A stretch of DNA of 64,000 nt. Source: Myxococcus eversor (GTDB lineage: Bacteria; Myxococcota; Myxococcia; Myxococcales; Myxococcaceae). Location of the stretch: contig NZ_JAAIXY010000009.1 of NCBI RefSeq assembly GCF_010894455.1, positions 1-64,000 of the forward strand, read 5' to 3'. Each line of letters starts with the position of its first letter. Position 1 is the first letter of the stretch. The notes beneath the pieces were generated by a model. The model searched no databases and had not been told where the DNA came from. It was given only the letters and a program-made list of their open reading frames with translations. Shown here in pieces: positions 4,339 to 36,789 of the stretch. The position numbers and the translations under genes are program-made.

Positions 4339-5522
4339 GCCGAGGCGGTTCACTCGAGGCCCTGACGGGGCTGCGCTTCTTCGCGGCCCTGCATGTCGTG
4401 CTGTTCCACTTCGCGCGCCCGGCCCTGGCGCCGGCGCCGGAGTGGCTTCAGGACTTCATCGGCGCGGGTTACTCCGCCGTGGGCGTCTTCTTCGTCCTGT
4501 CCGGCTTCGTCCTCGCCTGGAACTACCTGGACGTCGACGGGCGGATGGAGACGGGGACACGCGTGTTCCTGGCCGCCCGCGTGGCCCGCGTCTATCCCGT
4601 CTACCTGCTGACCTTCCTCCTGTCCGCGCCGCCCACCATCCTCGCGTCGGTGGCGGACAACGGCTGGAAGCTCGCCGCCGTGAAGCTCGCGGTGGGCGCG
4701 TTGGCCACGCTGGCGCTGGTGCAGGCGTGGGTGCCCCGGCTGGCGCTGTACTGGAATCCCCCCGGCTGGTCCGTGGCGGTGGAGGGGTTCTTCTATGCCC
4801 TCTTCCCCCGGCTCGCGCGGTGGCTGCCCACGGTGCGTCCCTCTCGGCTGCCCGTGTTGATGGGCGCGGTCTGGGGGCTGGGGCTGTTGCCGCCGGTGCT
4901 CTACGTCGTGCTGCGGCCGGACGGGCCGGGCACGCTGAACGCGCACACGGAGGGCCTGTGGCTGTCGGTGATGAAGTTCAGCCCGCTGGCGCGGCTGCCG
5001 GAGTTCCTCTTCGGGGTGCTCCTGGGCTGGTGCTTCGTGCGTGAGCGCGCGGCGGGTGGGACGAAGGGCTCGGGCGGGGTGCTGGCCTTGCTGGGCGCGG
5101 CGCTGCTGGTGGTGGCCGGCGCGGCGGGAGAGCGGATTCCCTACCCGCTGATGCACAACGCGCTATTGGCGCCCGCGTCGGGGCTCCTGGTGTACGGGCT
5201 GGCGCGCGGGGGAGGGTGGCTCGGCTGGGGGCTGTCACGCCCGCTGGTGGTGCACCTGGGGGCGGCGAGCTACGCGCTGTACCTGCTCCAGTACCCCGCG
5301 GGCGAGGCGGCCATGAAGCTGGAGCGCGTGCTGTCGCCCTGGGTGGACCTGAACACGCCGCTGGGCTGGCTGGGCTCGGTGCTGCTGTTGGCGGTGCCTA
5401 CGTCCGTGCTGGTGCACCGGTATGTCGAGACGCCGCTTCGCTCCCGGGTGCGCAAGGCGCTTCAGCCCTGGGTGGACGCGGATGGGGCCGTGACGACGAA
5501 GCCCGTGGTGCCGGGGGCCTGA
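4335..5522 (+). CDS. Membrane acyltransferase, acyltransferase-3 (OafA-like) family
   Basis: 395 residues with roughly ten hydrophobic helices. The family hallmarks are present near the N-terminus: [17 protein letters not shown], then [18 protein letters not shown], then [13 protein letters not shown]; the central [19 protein letters not shown] segment is also typical. Such proteins move acetyl or other acyl groups from cytoplasmic donors onto sugars of O-antigen, capsule or exported glycans in the inner membrane. The GTG start overlaps the ugd stop (GTGA), so the enzyme probably modifies the polysaccharide that uses ugd-derived glucuronate. The exact substrate cannot be read from sequence. 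Confidence 0.88.
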
Positions 5523-19493: not shown

Positions 19494-19518
19494 GGGGCTG
19501 TCCCCAGGGGGGGACGAC

Positions 19519-20364
19519 ATGGACGTGGTGCTGCGGCCCATCAACGACCGGTTCTTCCACGAGCAGGTGCTCCCGTTCCTCGCGCGCGCCATGGGTGACG
19601 CGACGGGGGCCCTGGAGTCGCTCCTGGAGACGCTGGGCGACGTGCAGGCGCGGATTCTCTGCGAGCGGATGCTGGCCACGGCGGTACCCGGGGGCCTGGG
19701 CTCGGTGGACGCGGACCCCTGGTCGGACCTGGTGGACAGGCTCGCCTTCCTCCCCTGGAAGGAAGGCCCCACGGGTTGGGAGGTGGGCACGCAGCACGCC
19801 GGCTACGCGGACGCCTGGGACGAGGCGCTGCACCTGTCGCTGATGCTGGAGGAGCCCAACTACCCGTACTGGGACTCGAAGGGCGCCCGCGAGGTGCGCG
19901 ACGGCTTCCGCTTCAGGCCCCTGGCGGACATGGGGCTGGCCTCGCTGCTGGCGGGGCAATGGGACCCCTTCCCGGAGTTCCCCCCGGACCGCGTCTTCGT
20001 CACCCAGGGCCGGGGCGAGTACTTCCCCACCGAGCGCTTCGCCTTCGCCGACTGGGCCTGGCGCCCGGCCCGCGCGGTGGCGCACTGGCAGGTGAACCTG
20101 CCGCGCAAGCTGGAACGGCTCATCGCCCGCGAGCAGGAGCGCATGAAGCTGCCGTCGCTGCCGGAGAAGGACGAGGTGCTCGGCTACTGGCTGGGCAAGC
20201 TGGCTCAGCCTCCGCCCCTGACGGTGGCCTTCTCCGGGCTGGGGCCTCGCGCGGCGAGCTGGATTCGGGAGCTGGGCGCGCTCACCACGCACATCCGCCA
20301 GGCGGCGATGGCCAAGCAGGGCCTGGCCGCGCTCGTCACCAAGGGCAGCACCGTCCGGATTTAA
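19519..20364 (+). CDS. Conserved-looking hypothetical protein
   Basis: 281 residues, starting 25 bases after ptsN and probably cotranscribed with it. It is a soluble, Trp- and Leu-rich protein ([74 protein letters not shown]). There is no signal peptide or membrane helix. I do not recognise the family. Its TAA stop shares bases with the stop of the convergent dtd gene (TTAA, 20361-20364). Confidence 0.75.
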
Positions 20365-28001: not shown

Positions 28002-29918
28002 ATGATTGTCGGCACCGCGGGACACATCGACCACGGCAAGACGTCGCTGGTGAAGGCCCTCACTGGCATCGACACGGACCGGCTCCAGGAAGAGAAGCGC
28101 CGGGGCATCACCCTGGAGCTGGGCTTCGCGCACCTGACGCTGGATGACGGCACGGTGGCGGGTGTGGTGGACGTGCCCGGCCACGAGCGCTTCGTGAAGG
28201 CGATGGCCGCGGGCGCGGGCGGCGTGGACCTGGCCGTGCTGGTGGTGGCCTCCGACGAGGGCGTGATGCCCCAGACGCGCGAGCACCTGGACATCTGCCG
28301 GCTCCTGGGCGTGCGCGCCGGTGTCGTCGCGCTCACCAAGTCGGACCTGCTGGCGGAGCCCGGGCCGGAGTGGCGCGTGCTGGTGGAGGCGGACCTCGCC
28401 GCGCTCACCGCGGGCTCGTTCCTGGAGGGCGCGCCGGTGGTGCCCTGCTCGACGCGCACGGGCGAGGGCCTGGACACGCTGCGCACCGCGCTCAGCCGGG
28501 CCGCCGGGGCGTTGACGAAGCGTCCCTCGGAGGGGCCGACCTTCCTGCCGGTGGACCGCGTCTTCACGTTGAAGGGCTTTGGCACCGTGGTGACGGGCAC
28601 GCTGTTGTCGGGCACGGTGGCGGTGGACGACGCGGTGTCGCTGCTCCCCGGGCAGCCGGGCCCGCTGCGGGTGCGCGGCGTGCAGGTGCATGGGCGGGCG
28701 GTGGAGAAGGTGGAGGCCGGTCAGCGCGCGGCGGTGAACCTGCCGGGCGTGGAGGCGGAGTCGCTCTCGCGGGGACAGGTGCTGACGCGCGCCGGAGAGC
28801 TGCCCGAGACGCGCATGCTGGACGTGGAGCTGACGCTGCTGCCCACGGCGGAGTCGCCGCTGCCGCGCCGTCGCAAGCTGCTCCTGCACCTGGGCACCTC
28901 GCAGGTGGAGGCCACGGTGGCGCTGCTGGACGTGGAGCGGTTGGAGCCCGGCGGGACGACGCTGGCGCAGCTGCGACTGGACGCGCCGGTGGCGGCGCTC
29001 GTGGGCCAGCGCTTCATCCTCCGAGGCTCGCGCGCGCTGCCCGGGCGGGGCGCGACGCTCGCGGGGGGCCGGGTGCTGTCGATTGCGCCGCCTCGGCGTC
29101 GCAAGGGCGGCTCGGCGGTGGTGGCGCCGCTGCGGGAGGCGGACCCGGCGGGGCAGGTGGCGTGGCTGTTGCGGCAGGCCGGCTATCGCGGGCTGACGCA
29201 GGCGGAGCTGTTCGGCCGCTCCGGGCTGGGCCCTCGGGTGCTGGCGCGCGCGCTGGAACTGCTGGGCACGCGAGGCGCGGCGCTGCTGCTGGACAGGGAG
29301 CGGCGGCTGTACCTGTCCGGCGAGGTGTTCGAGGGGCTGCAGGGACGGGCGCTCGCACTGCTGGCCGCCTTCCATGAGCGCGAGCCCTTGCGCGAGGGCC
29401 TGTCCCGCGAGGAGCTGCGTCAGCGCCTGTCGTCCGAGCTGGACGCGCGCGCCTTCCAGCGGGTGTTGCAGGGACTGGGGGACACCGGAAAGCTGGAGGT
29501 GGACCGGGACCTCGTGCGTCTGAAGGGGCGCGGCCGTGCATTGTCGCTGGGGGACGAGGCGGCCCGGGCGCGGCTCGCCGCGGAGCTGTCCGCGACGGGA
29601 CTGGCCCCGCCCACGGAGGCCGAGCTGTCCCAGAAGCTCCAGCTCCCGGTGCCCCGCCTGCGAGAGCTGTTGAAGGTGTTGATGGCCGAGGGGAGGGTGG
29701 CGCGGGTCAGCGAGGAGCTGTGCTTCGACGCGGTGGCGCTGGGGGCCCTGCGGGAACGGCTGGTTGCCCACCTGCGCGAGAAGAAGGAAATTAGCACCCA
29801 GGCCTTCAAGGAACTGGTGGGACAGAGCCGCAAGTTCGTCATCCCTCTGTCCGAGTACTTCGACCGGGAGAAGGTGACGCTCCGGGTAGGCGAGAAGCGG
29901 GTGCTGCGTCGCGGATGA
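28002..29918 (+). CDS. selB: Selenocysteine-specific elongation factor
   Basis: 638 residues. The GTPase starts at residue 1 with [60 protein letters not shown] and ALTKSDL are the G3 and G4 motifs. Domains II and III follow, including [17 protein letters not shown], and the C-terminal about 250 residues are winged-helix repeats that read the SECIS hairpin in mRNA. SelB delivers Sec-tRNA to in-frame UGA codons, so this organism should make selenoproteins. selA, selD and selC are not in the window. Its stop overlaps the start of the histidine kinase gene. Confidence 0.96.
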
Positions 29919-32431
29919 GCACGAAGCAATACAGCGAGGCGTCGCTGCGCGCCTTCATCGAACCCTTCGCCAACCCCGTGCTCGCGGTGGTGGACGGACG
30001 CGTGTTCGCCGCGAACGACGCGTACCTGGCGCTCCTGGGGCTGCCCCAGGAGCGAGTCGAGGGGCGCTCCATCATGGACTTCGTCCAGCCGGAGGACCGC
30101 AGCCGGCTGACTGAGCGCTACCGCCTGCTGGAGTCCGGTGTGCCCATGGAGGCGGCGACGCAGCTCTACCAGGTGCCCTCGGCGGACGGCGTCGCGCGGG
30201 AGGTGGCCCTCTATGCGTCCCATCTGCTGCTCGAGGGCGGAGGCCGGGCGCTGTTGCTCAACCTGTTGCCGATGATGGACCGGCCCCCCGAGCTGTCCGT
30301 GGCCGAGCGCCTGGTGGAGACCTCCGCGGGCCTCGTGTCCGCGCACTCCGAGGACGCGGTGCGCCGCGTCGCCATCAAGGGCCTGGAGGCCGCGGGCTTC
30401 CGGGTGCGGCTGCTGCGGTGGGATGGCATGCGGCTGCACGCGCTCGACGGTGGGCCTCCGCCCGCGGACGTGTACCTGGGGCTGGAGGCGCTGTCGGACG
30501 GGCGCCCCGTCTTCGGTGGCGCGGAGCGGGCCAAACCCACGCACGTGTACCTGCCGGTGGGAGGGCCCCAGGTGGAGGTGCTGCGCGTGGAGGGACCGTG
30601 GGTGGCGCCTCGCCATGGCTCGGTGCTGACGCTCTTCGCCAAGGTGGTGGGGGCGGCGCTGACGGACGCGCGCGTGCAGGCGGATGGCACGCGCAGCCGA
30701 TGGGAAGTGGGGGCCGTCGCGGAGATGGCGCGCTTCGTGGCTCGGCCGATTCCCCCCACGCCCGAGGACTTCCTGTCGCGCGTGTCGGAGCTGCTGCTGT
30801 CAGAGGCCGCGGTGCTCCACCTGACGCAAGGCGAGAAGGGGCCGCTGGAGCTGACCGCCCACTTCGGGCTGGCGGAGAGCGGCGTCTCCAAGGCGAGCGT
30901 GGACCGCTTGAGCGCGGTGATGGGGGCCACGGTGCCGGACGCACTGGATGGAGACCTCACCACGGAGGCCCAGGCGGCGGTGCTGCGCGAAGTCTCGGGC
31001 GGGGCGCTGGGCAGCGGCGCGGCGGTGCGACTGGCTCGCGGCGGAGAGGTCTGCGGCGTGCTCCAGGTATTGCGCGCGCCAGCCCGGCCCTTCGATGCGC
31101 GGGACGTGAGGCTGCTCGGCACGTTGTCGGAGCTGCTGGTGACGCTGCTGGAGCAGCGCAGGCTGCGCTCGGAGTCGGGGCGGCAGCTCGCCGAGACGCG
31201 CCTGCTGCTGGATTTGGCCCGCACCACGGCGGGCGTGCTGGAGACCTCCAGCATCCTCGACGTGGCCTCGGACTTCCTGGTCCACCTGCTGGACGTGTCC
31301 AACTGCTACATCATGCTGTACGACGAGAGCGCCAAGGTGCTCCGGGGCGCGGCGGCCTCCGCGGCCCATCGCGACTTCTTCCGCACGGTGGAGCTGTCGC
31401 TGAGCAGTGACAGCGTGGCGGCCCGGGCCGCGCGCGAGCGAAAGCCGGTGGCCATCGAGGACGTGGAGGCCTCGGGCGGAGGCTTCAACCCGCAGCTCGT
31501 CCAGCGCTTCGGGGAGAAGGCGCTCCTGGCGTTGCCGCTGACTTCGCGCGAGGAGCTCATCGGCGTGGTGCTGGTGGACGACACGCGGCGCAGCCGGAGC
31601 TTCAGCCCGGAACTCGTCGAACTGGCGGAAGCCACATGTGGGCAGCTCGCGCTCTCCATCGCCAACGCGCGTCTGTATGAGTCACTGTGGGCCAGCTACG
31701 CGGAGCTGGCGGCCACGCGCGCGGAGATGGTGAAGCGCGAGCGACTGGCCGCGCTGGGCGAGCTGTCCGCGATTGTCGCGCACGAGGTGCGCAACCCGCT
31801 GGGCGTCATCTTCAACGCGGTGGCGTCGCTGCGCCGGCTGCTGGAGCCCTCCGGTGACGCGGGCATGCTGCTGGACATCCTGGGCGAGGAGAGCGACCGC
31901 CTCAACCGCATCGTCGGCGACCTGCTCGACTACACGCGCCCCAGGAACCCGGTGCTCCAGCATGAGGACCTGGGCCGCGTGCTCCAGGACTCGCTGGAGG
32001 CGGCGCGCGTGCAGGGCGGTGGCTCGGACCGGCCGGTGCAAATTGACGCGGAGGTGGAGGCGGGGCTGCCGCCGGTGCCCATGGACCGCCGGCTCATCCG
32101 CCAGGCGCTCGTCAACGTGGCCGTCAACGCGATTCAGTCGATGCCGCAGGGTGGACGGGTGAGGGTGCTGGCGCGGAGGGAGGCGCATGGCGGGCGGGAG
32201 CAACTGCGCATCGACGTGGCGGACCAGGGGCTGGGCATCCCCGCCGAGCTGCTCCACCGCGTCTTCGAGCCCTTCTTCACCACCAAGGCGCAGGGCACGG
32301 GCCTGGGCCTGGCTGTCGTCAAACGTATCCTCGAGGAACATCGAGGCGAAATCGCCGTGGACAGCGTCCCCGGTCGCGGTACCACCTTCACTTTCAGACT
32401 TCCCCTCTCGCAGCCCCCGTCCTTCCCATGA
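29915..32431 (+). CDS. pxrK: Soluble PAS/GAF sensor histidine kinase, PxrK-like
   Basis: 838 residues, no membrane helix. A PAS domain opens the protein (FIEPFANPVLAVVDGRVFAANDAYLALLGLPQERVEGRSIMDFVQPEDR), a central region includes a GAF domain (about 430-590), then the DHp helix with phospho-acceptor His about 623 in AIVAHEVRNPLGVIFN, and the ATPase with NVAVNAIQS, DVADQGLGIP and GTGLGLAVVKRI. It is the NtrB-like partner of the activator that follows: start overlaps selB (ATGA) and stop overlaps the activator start (ATGA). From its position beside the Pxr RNA it corresponds to the kinase described as PxrK in M. xanthus; the name rests on synteny and recall. Confidence 0.88.
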   Translation: MSTKQYSEASLRAFIEPFANPVLAVVDGRVFAANDAYLALLGLPQERVEGRSIMDFVQPEDRSRLTERYRLLESGVPMEAATQLYQVPSADGVAREVALYASHLLLEGGGRALLLNLLPMMDRPPELSVAERLVETSAGLVSAHSEDAVRRVAIKGLEAAGFRVRLLRWDGMRLHALDGGPPPADVYLGLEALSDGRPVFGGAERAKPTHVYLPVGGPQVEVLRVEGPWVAPRHGSVLTLFAKVVGAALTDARVQADGTRSRWEVGAVAEMARFVARPIPPTPEDFLSRVSELLLSEAAVLHLTQGEKGPLELTAHFGLAESGVSKASVDRLSAVMGATVPDALDGDLTTEAQAAVLREVSGGALGSGAAVRLARGGEVCGVLQVLRAPARPFDARDVRLLGTLSELLVTLLEQRRLRSESGRQLAETRLLLDLARTTAGVLETSSILDVASDFLVHLLDVSNCYIMLYDESAKVLRGAAASAAHRDFFRTVELSLSSDSVAARAARERKPVAIEDVEASGGGFNPQLVQRFGEKALLALPLTSREELIGVVLVDDTRRSRSFSPELVELAEATCGQLALSIANARLYESLWASYAELAATRAEMVKRERLAALGELSAIVAHEVRNPLGVIFNAVASLRRLLEPSGDAGMLLDILGEESDRLNRIVGDLLDYTRPRNPVLQHEDLGRVLQDSLEAARVQGGGSDRPVQIDAEVEAGLPPVPMDRRLIRQALVNVAVNAIQSMPQGGRVRVLARREAHGGREQLRIDVADQGLGIPAELLHRVFEPFFTTKAQGTGLGLAVVKRILEEHRGEIAVDSVPGRGTTFTFRLPLSQPPSFP

Positions 32432-33873
32432 CTGACGCGAACACCCCGCCGTCCCGTGGACGCATCCTCGTCGTGGATGACCAGCGCAACATGCGCGCAA
32501 CCACGGCGCTGCTCCTGCGCGCCGAGCACTACACCGTCTTCGAGGCGGGCACGGGTGAAGAGGCCCTGGCCCACCTGTCCGGCGGCAGCATGGACCTGCT
32601 GCTGACCGACTTGAAGATGGAGCCCATGGACGGGCTGACGCTGCTCAGGCGCGCGCTGGAGGTGGCCCCTCGCCTCCAGGTCATCATGATGACGGCCTTC
32701 GGCTCCATCGAGAGCGCGGTGGAGGCGATGCGGCTGGGTGCGTACGACTACGTCACCAAGCCCTTCAAGGAGAGCGAGCTGCGCTACCGCGTGGAGCGCG
32801 CCCTGGAGCGCGCGCGCCTCCTGCGCGACGTGGACAACCTCGCCACCGACTTCAACCAGCGCCATGGCCTGTCCGCGCTGGTGGGGCGCAGCGCCGCCAT
32901 GAGGGACCTCACCTCGCGGCTGATGCGCGTGGCGCAGAGCGACGCCACCGTGCTCATCCAGGGAGAGAGCGGCACCGGCAAGGAGCTGGTGGCCAGGGCG
33001 CTCCACGCACACAGCCGTCGCAAGAACCGCTCCTTCGTGCCCGTCAACTGCGCCGCCATCAGCGAGTCCCTGCTGGAGAGCGAGCTGTTCGGCCACGCGA
33101 AGGGCGCCTTCACGGGCGCGGTGAAGGCGCGTCGCGGCCTCTTCGAGGAAGCCGACGGAGGCACGCTCTTCATCGACGAGGTGACGGAGACGAGCCCCAC
33201 CTTCCAGTCCAAGCTCTTGCGCGCTCTCCAGGAGGGCGAGGTGCGCCGCGTGGGCGAGTCCACCGCGCTGCGCGTGGACGTGCGCACCGTCGCCGCCACC
33301 AACCGCGATATCGAAGTGGAGGTGCGCGAGAAGCGCTTCCGCCAGGACCTCTACTACCGCCTCAACGTGGTGACGCTGCGCGTGCCGCCACTGCGAGAGC
33401 GCCTGGATGACGTGCCCGTGCTCGCCGAGCACTTCCTGGAGCGCGCCAACGCCCGCAGCCCCAACCCCCGGCGCCTGTCCGCCTCCGCCGTGACACACCT
33501 GATGAACTACGACTTCCCCGGCAACGTGCGCGAGCTGGAGAACCTGGTGGAGCAGGCCGCCGCGCTCGCGGAGAGCGACGAGCTGATGCCGGAGGACTTC
33601 CCGCTGCGCCAGGCCCGCCTGACGCCCGCGCACGGCACCTCCAGCCTCAGCGCCCTGGATGGACAACTGGGGCTCGGTGCGGGCACGGCCGGAGGTCCCA
33701 CCCTGGCCCAGGTGGTGGAGGACGCCGAGCGCCGCGCCATTGCCCAGTCCCTGGAGCGCCATGGCGTGGACCTTGCTCGTGTAGCGGACGAGCTGGGCGT
33801 CTCCTCCACCACCCTCTGGCGGAAGATGAAGCGCCTCAACCTCCGCCCGCCCACGGAGGCGAGCCGGGAGTAG
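32428..33873 (+). CDS. pxrR: NtrC-type sigma-54-dependent response regulator, PxrR-like
   Basis: 481 residues. The receiver domain has the phospho-acceptor Asp at about 61 in [13 protein letters not shown] and the switch Thr and Lys in MMTAFGS and YVTKPF. The AAA+ domain shows Walker [15 protein letters not shown], the sigma-54 contact loop GAFTGA at 226-231, and Walker [11 protein letters not shown] Fis-type HTH closes the protein ([23 protein letters not shown]). It should bind upstream dyads and drive the -24/-12 promoter 220 bases after its stop. In M. xanthus the matching regulator PxrR is needed for Pxr expression. Confidence 0.9.
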
Positions 33874-33930: not shown

Positions 33931-34082
33931 ATGAACGGGGTTCATCGGTGAAAAACACAGGCGCCTGAAATCATTGATAATTTTCAGTTCTGCAAGGCGA
34001 TTTCAGGGCTGCAATGCAATCGACGAGGTTGGCCACTGTCGGGTGGACCTCTAAGTGCCTGAGAAAACTGGAGTTTGTCTCA
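33931..34082. promoter_or_regulatory. Cluster of dyads upstream of the Pxr promoter, candidate activator sites
   Basis: In an AT-richer intergenic stretch lie ATGAAC-GGG-GTTCAT (33931-33945, perfect), CAGGCGCCTG (33958-33967, perfect), CTGAAA-N11-TTTCAG (33965-33987) with another TTTCAG at 34001-34006, and the imperfect dyad TGAGA-AAAC...GTTT-GTCTCA (34060-34082). They lie 10-160 bases upstream of the -24 element, where NtrC-type activators usually bind. Which one PxrR uses is unknown. Confidence 0.45.
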
Positions 34083-34092
34083 AAACAGCTCC

Positions 34093-34108
34093 TGGCACGA
34101 CGACTGCT
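34093..34108 (+). promoter_or_regulatory. Sigma-54 (-24/-12) promoter of the Pxr sRNA
   Basis: TGGCAC-GACGA-CTGCT matches the consensus TGGCAC-N5-TTGCW at all but one position and keeps the invariant GG-N10-GC spacing. It predicts a start site near 34119, and it lies downstream of a sigma-54 activator gene. Confidence 0.87.
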
Positions 34109-34118
34109 ATAGCTCCAC

Positions 34119-34241
34119 GCGGGACACATCGAAGCGAGGCTGAAGGCGGTTCCCCCCCACCCCTTCAGCACTTCCGGTGAGTCACCTTCAGAAGACCCGC
34201 GGCCCGACCCTCCCCTGTGGAGTGTCGGGCCGCCTTCTTTT
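34119..34241 (+). ncRNA. pxr: Pxr small RNA (regulator of fruiting-body development)
   Basis: A transcript starting about 12 bases after the -12 element and ending at the intrinsic terminator would be about 120 nt with no coding potential. A first hairpin pairs GCTGAAGG (34139-34146) with CCTTCAGC (34162-34169); its loop holds a run of seven cytosines (34152-34158). In M. xanthus Pxr, described by Velicer and colleagues, the mutation that restored development in a cheater strain is a C-to-A change in such a seven-C run, and the gene likewise lies between a sigma-54 response regulator and a GNAT gene. Pxr blocks development in fed cells. The identification rests on synteny, promoter type, size and the C7 loop; the exact ends are predicted. 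Confidence 0.87.
34199..34241 (+). terminator. Intrinsic terminator of Pxr
   Basis: A perfect 10-bp stem GCGGCCCGAC (34199-34208) and GTCGGGCCGC (34224-34233) is followed by CTTCTTTT (34234-34241). Confidence 0.9.
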
Positions 34242-34307: not shown

Positions 34308-35156
34308 ATGGCGGTGCGAGTGGGACGGCAGCCGTGTCCGTGGGTGCTGAGGCCTGGACGCGAGGACGATTACCCGACGTACGCGAGGCTGTTCGCGGAG
34401 CTGGGCCTGGAAGAGCCCCCGCCCTCCGCCACCATGTGGGCGCAGGAAGTCTCTCCCCGCACCCTGCTGGTGGACGGGCCAGGTGGGGTGGAGGGGTACA
34501 CGTCGACAGACGCGCTGGGCGTGCTGGGCTACGTGGGGCAGCTCGTGGTGGCGCCCTCCGCGCGGCGTCAGGGGCTGGGGCGCTGGATGATGCAGCGCGT
34601 GGCGGAGCGCCTTCGGGAGCAGGGCTGCCAGAGCTGGGCCCTCAACGTGAAGCGGGACAACGCCGCGGCGCTGGGGCTGTACACCTCGCTGGGCATGAAG
34701 CTCGTGCGCCAGGGCACCAACCTCCGGGTGACGCGCGCCCAGGTGGCGGTGCTGCCGCCCGTGCCCCACGGCTTGATGGTGGTTCCCGTGGAGTCAGGTG
34801 ACTGGGAGCCGCTGACGCAAGCCTTCGGGATGATGCCGGGCAAGCTGGCGCGCTACGCGACGCTGCCTTCGCACCGACTGCTTCGGCTGGCGCGCGAGGA
34901 CGGCGAGGAGGGTACGCTGGGGATGATGGACGTGCGCTCCGGCGGCGCGGTGCTCTATCCCTTCTTCGCGGACTCACTGGCCCACGCGCGAGCGCTGCTG
35001 GAGGGCGCCTTCTCGCTGCTAGGAGAGGCCCGGGAGCCGGTGGCCGTGGTGGTGACGGACGACGTGCCCCTGGAGCAGCTCCTGCGGGACGCGGGCGCCG
35101 GCGTGAGCCTGGAGACCTTTGAGCTGCGCGGCGCGCTCCCGGAGTCGAAGCCGTAG
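34308..35156 (+). CDS. GNAT acetyltransferase downstream of Pxr
   Basis: 282 residues, with AAGGAG six bases upstream of the ATG. The N-terminal half is a standard GNAT domain (WVLRPGREDDYPTYARLFAELGLEEP; VLGYVGQLVVAPSARRQGLGRWMMQRVAERLREQGCQSWALNVKRDNAAALGLYTSLGMKLVRQG) with the acetyl-CoA loop RRQGLG. The C-terminal about 130 residues look like a second, diverged GNAT-like half. The acceptor is unknown. The Pxr terminator separates it from the sRNA, but read-through could link them. The same neighbour is found at the M. xanthus locus. Confidence 0.88.
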   Translation: MAVRVGRQPCPWVLRPGREDDYPTYARLFAELGLEEPPPSATMWAQEVSPRTLLVDGPGGVEGYTSTDALGVLGYVGQLVVAPSARRQGLGRWMMQRVAERLREQGCQSWALNVKRDNAAALGLYTSLGMKLVRQGTNLRVTRAQVAVLPPVPHGLMVVPVESGDWEPLTQAFGMMPGKLARYATLPSHRLLRLAREDGEEGTLGMMDVRSGGAVLYPFFADSLAHARALLEGAFSLLGEAREPVAVVVTDDVPLEQLLRDAGAGVSLETFELRGALPESKP

Positions 35157-35229: not shown

Positions 35230-36789
35230 CTACTGACCGAAGATGCTGCTGGCCTGTTGCAGCCACCCGGTGATGGGGCCCGGGAGGATTCCGAACACCA
35301 GCACGGCGGCGGTGGCGAGGACCAGGGCCAGCTCGGTGGACCAGCTCCGCTCGAGCGTCAGCGCGCCCTCGGGAACGGGCCGCATGAACATGTAGACCAC
35401 CACGCGCAGGTAGTAATAGGCACCCGCCGCGCTGGCGAGCACGCCGACGATGGCCAGGCCGATGAGGCCCGAGTCCACCGCGCTCTGGAAGATGAGCAGC
35501 TTGCTCATGAAGCCGATGGTGGGAGGAATCCCGCCCAGCGACAGCATGAAGGTGGCCATGGCCACGGCCCAGCCCGGACGGCGCTGCGCCAGCCCGCTGA
35601 ATCGCTCCAAGTCCCAGGCGGTGCCCTTCTCCTCGTCCTCGCGGCGCTCCAGCACGGACACCAGGGTGAAGGCACCCACGGCGCTGAAGGTGTAGGCGAG
35701 CAGGTAGAAGAGGATGCCGCGCAAGGCCTGTGAGCGCGCCAGCTCCACCGGCGAGCCACCCGTCAGCTCGGACGGACCCAGCAGGCGGAACTGCTCGCCC
35801 GGCGCGGTGACGAACAGCGCCGCCACGCCCACCAGGAGATAGCCGGCGTGGGCGATGGACGAGTACGCCAGCATGCGCTTCACGTTGCGCTGCGGAATCG
35901 CCAGCAGGTTGCCCACCACCATGGTGAGGAAGGCGAGGGTGGAGAACAGCACCAGCGGCAGGTGCGGGTCGATTCCCTTGCCCAGCGTGAGGAACACGCG
36001 CACCAGCGCCGCGAAGGCCGCGGCCTTCACGCCTGCGCTCATCAGCGCGGTGACGGGGGTGGGGGCACCCTCGTACACGTCCGGCGTCCACATGTGGAAC
36101 GGCACCGCGGCCACCTTGAAGGCGAAGCCGGAGCCCAGGAGGATGAGGCCCACGTAGACCAGCGCCGGCTGGGTGGCGAGCGCGCCGGACAGCGGGCCCA
36201 CCATGTCCGTCAGCTTCGTGGAGCCGGTGGCGCCGTAGAGCAGCGCCGCGCCGTACAGCAGCACCGCGGAGGAGAAGGCGCCGAGGATGAAGTACTTGAA
36301 GCCCGCCTCGCTCGGCCGCGTGCCACGGCGCAGATACGACGTCAGCGCGTAGGTCGCGATGGAGAGGACCTCCAGGTTGACGAAGAGCGTGATGAGCTCG
36401 TTGGACAGCGCCAGCAGGCTCATGCCCGCCGCGGCGAAGAGCATCAGCGCGTAGAACTCACCGCGCTCCGCCCCGCGCTTGCGCAGGAAGCTCACCGAGC
36501 TCAGCGCCGCCAGGCCCAGGCCCACGCACACCACGAAGGTGAGGAAGCTGGAGAAGGGGTCCAGCACGCCGAAGCCGAGGAACACCTCGTGCGCCGGCTC
36601 GAACATGTTGGCCACGGCCACGGCGCCCGCCGCCACCGAGGACACCACGGTGAGCACGGCCTGGTAGGAGCGCGACGCGTTGGCGCCGAGGAACACTTCC
36701 GACAAGAGCAGGATGCAGGCTCCCACCACCAGGATGATGGCGGGAATCAGCGGGAGGAAGTCTGCCAGGGTGAGATTGGGCAGGATCAT
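35230..36789 (-). CDS. nuoN: NADH-quinone oxidoreductase subunit N
   Basis: 519 residues and about 14 membrane helices. Antiporter-like features of the family are clear: the lysine helix AFKVAAVPFHMWTPDVYEGAPTPVTALMS, and MLAYSSIAHAGYLLVG. It forms part of the proton-pumping membrane arm of complex I and carries out no redox chemistry itself. It is the last gene of the nuo run, 18 bases after nuoM. Confidence 0.95.
   Translation of the reverse strand: MILPNLTLADFLPLIPAIILVVGACILLLSEVFLGANASRSYQAVLTVVSSVAAGAVAVANMFEPAHEVFLGFGVLDPFSSFLTFVVCVGLGLAALSSVSFLRKRGAERGEFYALMLFAAAGMSLLALSNELITLFVNLEVLSIATYALTSYLRRGTRPSEAGFKYFILGAFSSAVLLYGAALLYGATGSTKLTDMVGPLSGALATQPALVYVGLILLGSGFAFKVAAVPFHMWTPDVYEGAPTPVTALMSAGVKAAAFAALVRVFLTLGKGIDPHLPLVLFSTLAFLTMVVGNLLAIPQRNVKRMLAYSSIAHAGYLLVGVAALFVTAPGEQFRLLGPSELTGGSPVELARSQALRGILFYLLAYTFSAVGAFTLVSVLERREDEEKGTAWDLERFSGLAQRRPGWAVAMATFMLSLGGIPPTIGFMSKLLIFQSAVDSGLIGLAIVGVLASAAGAYYYLRVVVYMFMRPVPEGALTLERSWSTELALVLATAAVLVFGILPGPITGWLQQASSIFGQ

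Follow-up and report, generated by a model that had tools for sequence, protein, structure and literature searches.

The stretch between an NtrC-type regulator gene and a GNAT acetyltransferase gene in Myxococcus eversor raises the question of which RNA it encodes, how that RNA is switched on, and by what contact it acts. Within the window (the whole 64,000-nt stretch of DNA analyzed here), sequence comparison identifies 34119-34241 as the pxr gene, encoding the Pxr small RNA that decides between growth and fruiting-body building in M. xanthus. The initial annotation had equated the locus with M. xanthus Pxr and proposed a covariance-model search. This search bears the reading out: Rfam model RF01812 (Pxr) covers 34132-34241 at full length (model positions 1-109) with 113.8 bits and E 1.4e-19, against a gathering cut-off of 80 bits, and is the sole Rfam match above its gathering cut-off in the 64 kb. 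The RNA shares 103 identical positions of 113 alignment columns with a record named M. xanthus AM003, and 110 nt of it occur identically in records named Myxococcus qinghaiensis and M. llanfairpwllgwyngyllgogerychwyrndrobwllllantysiliogogogochensis. A single pxr copy was found in the M. eversor genome. The pxr locus itself is of an already known kind, while its transcription and developmental control in M. eversor are proposed by homology only. What goes beyond the initial annotation are the enhancer boxes, a target lead, and a wider RNA family.

The predicted primary transcript (34119-34241, plus strand) measures 123 nt, close to the length of about 120 nt claimed earlier; its start is placed from the -12 element, and the Rfam model spans 34132-34241. 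It folds at -62 kcal/mol, compared with -41.4 ± 3.6 kcal/mol for shuffled sequences (z -5.7; 0 of 200 as good). Between 34132 and 34241, the fold comprises three predicted stem-loops on the plus strand, the first with a C-rich loop and the last a terminator. Stem-loop 1 (34136-34173) carries the seven cytosines that had been pointed out previously, at 34152-34158, within the 8-nt loop UCCCCCCC and closed by a GGU/ACC stem; across 117 pxr copies counted in the window's family, the longest C-run is 6-8. Stem-loop 2 occupies 34176-34186. Stem-loop 3 with the intrinsic terminator follows at 34191-34240, and its perfect 10-bp core (34199-34208 with 34224-34233), also described before, is succeeded by CTTCTTTT. 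Conserved pairs of stem-loop 3 show changes on both sides.

The surroundings agree with this identity. Upstream on the plus strand lie homologs of pxrK (spdS; 29915-32431), encoding a PAS-GAF-HisKA-HATPase sensor kinase, and of pxrR (spdR, nla19; 32428-33873), encoding a receiver, a sigma-54 AAA+ domain, and a Fis-type HTH, all by Pfam. The window PxrR is 99.0% identical to that of genome G123. Downstream, the GNAT gene (34308-35156, plus strand; Pfam PF00583) is the positional homolog of pxrA (MXAN_1079), and nuoN (35230-36789, minus strand; NCBIfam TIGR01770) forms the conserved far flank of the locus. The placement between regulator and GNAT gene given in the initial annotation holds, and the order pxrK, pxrR, pxr, GNAT, nuoN is the published arrangement, the M. 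xanthus neighbors being reported as pxrK, pxrR, pxr, and pxrA (PMC11928866, PMC10217877). M. xanthus Pxr (RF01812) and the window locus are alike in sequence, three stem-loops, C7 loop, sigma-54 promoter, pxrR-nuoN position, and pxrK/pxrA neighbors, and nothing of substance differs.

The sigma-54 (-24/-12) promoter of pxr, TGGCACGACGACTGCT, lies at 34093-34108 on the plus strand and contains TGGCACG and TGCT. Its GG (34094-34095) and GC (34106-34107) are ten bases apart, as the earlier claim of a GG-N10-GC spacing had it. It is the only TGGCACGNNNNNTGCW match in the 64 kb, where 0.14 would be expected; because 12 of 100 shuffles also yield at least one, the promoter match alone is not decisive. 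Related loci share this element at a similar distance.

Two putative PxrR boxes, TTTCAGTTCTGCAA (33982-33995) and TTTCAGGGCTGCAA (34001-34014), both on the plus strand, precede this element, match the consensus TTKCA-N4-TGMAA, and are conserved upstream of Pxr-type genes. The pattern TTKCANNNNTGMAA has two matches in the 64 kb against 0.05 expected, a number that 0 of 100 shuffles reach. The box motif is found in 128 of 143 regions upstream of Pxr-type genes, compared with a background of 0.025 per 260 nt in the rest of these loci, and outside the family 25 of 33 upstream regions contain it. It occurs in six of the seven families looked at, the single f5 upstream region being without it, and 184 of the 249 sites lie 80-119 nt before the promoter. 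A box followed after 64-94 nt by a sigma-54 element has one match in the 11.4-Mb M. eversor genome. Across 20 genomes, the combined pattern gave 14 matches, 13 of them at Pxr-type genes (11 genes) and one elsewhere in G144, whereas the reversed pattern gave none; eleven of the 20 genomes hold no match to this strict form. The box sequence was not met in print in a literature check covering parts of PMC5568312. The two upstream boxes are likely the PxrR site, and PxrR activation through them is well supported by comparison. The predicted box would give PxrR a defined site.

The proposed course of events would begin with PxrK signaling to PxrR, which may then bind the boxes at 33982-34014 and drive sigma-54 polymerase from 34093-34108. 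Going by its M. xanthus homolog, the RNA would be cut down to a short active form as long as nutrients are available and would block entry into development. The C7 loop would most likely pair with G-runs at ribosome sites. Foremost among the candidate targets is a sensor kinase of the PAS-GAF type, probably MXAN_0736, at its Shine-Dalgarno region GGGGGGGAG. The whole of this reading, from pxr identity through PxrK/PxrR/box/promoter control and the block of development to loop-to-G-run targeting that includes the kinase, appears distinctly probable; with the target included in the statement, we hold it less firmly than identity by itself. Identity, promoter, boxes, structure, synteny, and the conserved G-run were computed here. 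The M. xanthus papers supply PxrK/R dependence, processing, inhibition of development, and the higher MXAN_0736 transcript level when pxr is missing; box binding, loop pairing, the name of the kinase gene, and function in M. eversor are what we infer.

The candidate target emerged from the pattern TGGGGGGGA-N1-14-ATG, the loop complement near start codons, which gave 87 matches in seven genomes against 9 for the reversed pattern, an excess that may reflect composition. Fifty-four of the 87 were read (30 loci, two of them the same site, plus 14 and 10): all matches of G000, G121, G119, G122, and G087 are included, together with 10 of 24 in G061 and 10 of 29 in G097. Among sites with a long ORF, only one gene recurred between species by eye, a membrane PAS-GAF-HisKA-HATPase kinase of 614-618 aa. 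Its copies in G119, G121, and G122 were found through the G-run screen, and those in G118, G127, G128, G130, and G087 by position and protein similarity; the position search covered 20 stretches in eight genomes, and the kinase was not met at the guessed position in G136, G131, and G061. In all eight orthologs read, which come from neither this M. eversor genome nor M. xanthus, the loop complement GGGGGGGAG stands at the ribosome site and begins 15-16 nt before the ATG. None of the seven screen matches in the M. eversor genome, all of them read, lies at such a kinase; the G087 kinase also escapes the screen pattern, a C preceding its run.

G128 and G130 resemble G119; G127 and G122 are likewise similar, as are G118 and G121. 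Independent support thus amounts to four groups of leaders, between which only 6-17 of 40 upstream positions are identical. A run of seven or more G at -25 to -4 precedes 5 of 333 ORFs in 464 kb, three of them this kinase, in a sample made by simple ORF calling on stretches chosen to hold the kinase. For the kinase leaders, duplexes with the 12-nt loop segment are predicted at -20.4 to -22.9 kcal/mol, and two non-kinase leaders in the sample reach -20.4 kcal/mol. The G-run at the ribosome site could be kept for translation alone. A pair of sites shared by G000 and G119 (L298/L162) was discarded as a target, no ORF following the ATG. The pattern TGGGGGGAA gave no enrichment common to all three g23 genomes (41, 53, and 35 matches compared with 46, 23, and 19 for the reversed form).

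Four genes follow the kinase in L324, coding in turn for a 613-aa protein, a FIST protein, a hybrid kinase of 980 aa that has three receivers, and a single receiver. The hybrid kinase has what we take to be the make-up of RodK, and rodK is presumably MXAN_0733; as the PAS-GAF kinase is the third gene upstream, it is probably MXAN_0736 by gene order and count. MXAN_0733 maps at 33 degrees (PMC3778016), in rough fit with the G121 kinase, which lies 879.6 kb into a genome of 8.97 Mb, or at about 35 degrees. MXAN_0736 encodes a histidine kinase, and its transcript is reported up in growing pxr-deleted cells (PMC11928866); the gene is also up in development and lies near an MrpC site (PMC4320627). 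The close downstream rodK is reported to fall rather than rise without pxr. Direct Pxr targets are reported as unknown in PMC11928866, where pxrA is given as the only affected gene on the published TargetRNA3 list. A C-to-A change in the loop abolishes Pxr function (PMC5684412).

Instead of pairing with mRNA, the C-rich loop might attract a protein as bait, for example a ribonuclease or a poly-C-binding protein. The C-run is indeed the steadiest element of the RNA, with variation in its length (6 to 10) and in the loop letters beside it, as in homopolymer recognition. However, varied length suits pairing too, and the complementary G-run is conserved at the kinase ribosome site. Protein bait appears unlikely and is the second choice as mode of action, behind loop pairing. 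We know of no earlier direct Pxr target with both sequence and published expression support, and the G-run lead turns the direct-target question into a one-reporter test. Loop pairing of the proposed kind may have parallels in staphylococcal UCCC-motif RNAs and Helicobacter RepG, where a C-rich loop binds G-rich sites near ribosome sites. Vibrio Qrr RNAs, which are driven by an NtrC-type response regulator like Pxr and use Hfq, are likened to Pxr by description, not by sequence. They too are sigma-54 small RNAs, present in one to several copies, that control social behavior (copies: PMC5568312). In myxobacteria, an Hfq homolog was not detected (PMC5568312).

Two further observations concern G-runs in the window. 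A G7 run at 19507-19513 stands just before the longest start of a 281-aa ORF (19519-20364, plus strand), which is one of the five G-run ORFs among the 333 and a possible further Pxr target. TGGGGGG, the complement of the loop core, occurs 9 times on both strands against 17.7 expected, with all 100 shuffles giving at least 9; codon use may explain this shortfall.

The GNAT gene next to pxr invites another explanation, in which the hairpin is a leader attenuator of the downstream gene (GNAT here, a receiver-like gene in Anaeromyxobacter-like genomes) and not a trans-acting RNA. In several f3 loci, the receiver-like ORF starts about 12-25 nt after the terminator, and the M. xanthus GNAT transcript rises most upon pxr loss (PMC11928866). 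Against this, downstream genes differ between lineages, unlinked copies exist, and nuoN usually runs opposite to pxr (of 83 family loci read, it is on the opposite strand in 57, on the same strand in 2, and beyond the stretch read in 24). Moreover, many other transcripts, including fruA, change without pxr, and homologs from other species restore control in a deletion strain, insertion site aside (PMC5568312). We consider attenuation quite improbable and retain trans action by loop pairing. Pairing of the C-run with pxrA leaders was also considered and rejected: no G-run there exceeds 4 in 33 of 33 (starts taken from alignments, uncurated).

GNAT homologs occupy the same place in 33 loci, the window locus included. 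PxrA homologs have been described in a few Myxococcus species, from which a later origin than that of pxr was inferred (PMC11928866). Since a GNAT gene whose product is 49-59% identical to the window's follows pxr in L033, L034, L085, L015, L018, L020, L026, and L062, the pxr-pxrA pair seems older than this published inference, with losses; none was seen after pxr in g5, g6, and g7 loci. Orthology of pxrA is judged here from position and tblastn.

RF01812 at E 0.001 matches 93 of 195 Myxococcota genomes, all in the window's family (93 of its 96), and exceeds the cut-off in 61 of those 93. Model R1, built from the window's family only, contributes two more: a diverged copy in G105 and, next to nuoN where a contig of G067 ends, a fragment. 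The RNA was not found in family genome G152. In the 83 family loci read, the PxrR homolog is on the pxr strand in 70, on the opposite strand in 2, and not seen in 11, among them L072 and L085, where contig ends interrupt the locus. Copies away from the locus occur in L054, L060, L063, and L064, and genera g3, g4, g7, and g20 hold between two and five pxr copies in tandem. In some members of genus g4 (L038, L042), pxr points the opposite way from pxrR and shares the strand of nuoN.

Several family members keep the RNA despite having no PxrR ortholog: G140 and G141 (g21), G143-G145 (g23), and G105, where the best match is 45-49% identical. Genomes G143-G145 measure 2.1-2.7 Mb. No box was seen in the 300 nt before L065, L066, L068, and L188, nor before L069 and L070. 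In g21, the sigma-54 element is gone and, by eye, TTGTCA-N17-TATNTG stands in its place. The stretches L068, L069, and L070, from genomes of 2.1-2.7 Mb that have no PxrR ortholog, have 53-55% G+C and carry pxr with a C6 loop beside nuoN. EspA scores above its cut-off in 62 of the 96 family genomes, compared with the RNA in 95 of 96 (one a fragment); in a set with many drafts, this contrast fits a pxr role wider than the known developmental network.

Relatives of Pxr also occur outside the family. Of the 49 genomes that belong to the order but not to the family, 19 match the pattern promoter-N28-56-GGTNYCCCCCCRCC, compared with 2 for the reversed pattern; beyond the order, 0 of 50 genomes do. 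R1, from family sequences only, detects g31, a genus of f3, with E values of about 1e-7 to 1e-6. Model R2, built from 15 one-hairpin RNAs of f3 and f6, finds 27 of the 49; together with G025 (by the pattern) and G161 and G162 (by the regulator's neighborhood), relatives are present in 30 of the 49 genomes and in seven of eight other families. At least one locus was read for each of these 30, that of G162 (L265) being cut inside the loop. These RNAs are not members of RF01812, which at E 0.001 has no match in 99 genomes outside the family under strict filters.

The non-family loci have a sigma-54 element followed by a hairpin with a C-run loop, often as a single hairpin whose loop is C8; in the 39 copies counted, the C-run has a length of 6-10, and loop flanks other than GGTN occur in L254-L258, L261, L264, and L282. 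Each excised f3 or f6 RNA consists of one hairpin, 69-77 nt long and with a T-run, and compared with Pxr, the relatives lack stems 2 and 3 or have another terminator. An alignment of 13 distinct sequences has 95.4% of its cells paired, and both partners vary in 7 of the 25 pairs, a number that 1 of 500 shuffles reaches; further pair types show no excess over shuffles (489 of 500 as high). The one-hairpin relatives, together with the lineages that lack PxrR and still carry the RNA, allow its role outside development to be studied, as well as the sufficiency of stem-loop 1 by itself. That they are unrelated sigma-54 RNAs whose C-rich loops arose by convergence, to which the missing or different stems 2 and 3, the absence of RF01812 matches up to E 1 in four loci (L231, L238, L244, L247), and the 41 of 96 family genomes left unmatched by R2 at E 0.01 might point, is the least credible alternative, given the same place after pxrR and often before nuoN, the same boxes, the near-identical stem-loop 1 core GTTGAAGGAGGTYCCCCCCCRCCACTTCAGC, and the 55 of 96 family genomes in which R2, from f3 and f6 only, has one match each, 54 of them at pxr (the other is G072:C644).

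The RNA follows PxrR in 14 of 15 f3 genomes (exception G040), 3 of 3 in f6, and 2 of 2 in f9, and some relatives share the pxrR-nuoN site with pxr. All 14 RNA-bearing non-family genomes asked have one clear PxrR ortholog (57-67% identity, next best at most 54%), two of these matches carrying an in-frame stop. Among 14 genomes without a known RNA, seven have a PxrR ortholog, and an adjoining RNA was then found in two of them, G161 and G162. In G019, G048, G054, G163, and G164, the ortholog is present and the RNA was not found; neither was found in G055, G158, G160, G045, G023, G013, and G182.

Genus g31 presumably resembles Anaeromyxobacter, and G161 is taken to resemble Vulgatibacter. Reportedly, Chen et al. 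2014 found pxr homologs across the suborder Cystobacterineae, apart from a few possible losses. Cystobacterineae now has the rank and name of order Myxococcales (PMC8538405), so the present relatives fill apparent losses, and the idea that the published pxr origin is wrong was dropped. Both Anaeromyxobacter and Vulgatibacter are described without reports of fruiting bodies (PMC8561891; Anaeromyxobacter also PMC8538405). Whether the C7 loop covers the G7 Shine-Dalgarno of the kinase, within an order-wide PxrR-driven RNA family in which Myxococcaceae tied an older growth-linked RNA to development, is in our judgment evenly balanced. If true, the constant part of this family would be a run of 6-10 C in a hairpin loop, and the single-hairpin form would be present also in bacteria without reported fruiting bodies.

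Several candidates were set aside. L043 and L050 match RF01812 through the terminator only, and L263, L192, L193, L195, L196, and L197 have neither loop nor promoter. One of two G052 matches and others such as G121:C1:3336083, G064:C25, G076:C499, G111:C650, G139:C669, and G097:C1:3454394 look like chance. Ten matches outside myxobacteria scored with R1 include one weak match, L102, at 21 bits.

Directly after the one-hairpin RNA in L238, and similarly in other f3 loci, lies a 110-aa receiver-like ORF (5120-5449) in the place that the GNAT gene has in Myxococcus; its Pfam Response_reg score of 25.8 bits is under the cut-off of 30.2. At the predicted loop, the contig of L265 (G162; positions 1-90) starts within a tract of some 30 C, and L272 (G157) has an N gap and then C18 after another PxrR gene; these C-tract breaks may reflect assembly trouble or slippage. 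One-hairpin copies also occur in tandem, with three in G059 (L246:2114-2764), and in L249-L253, G156 has four copies and G157 three, spread over several contigs.
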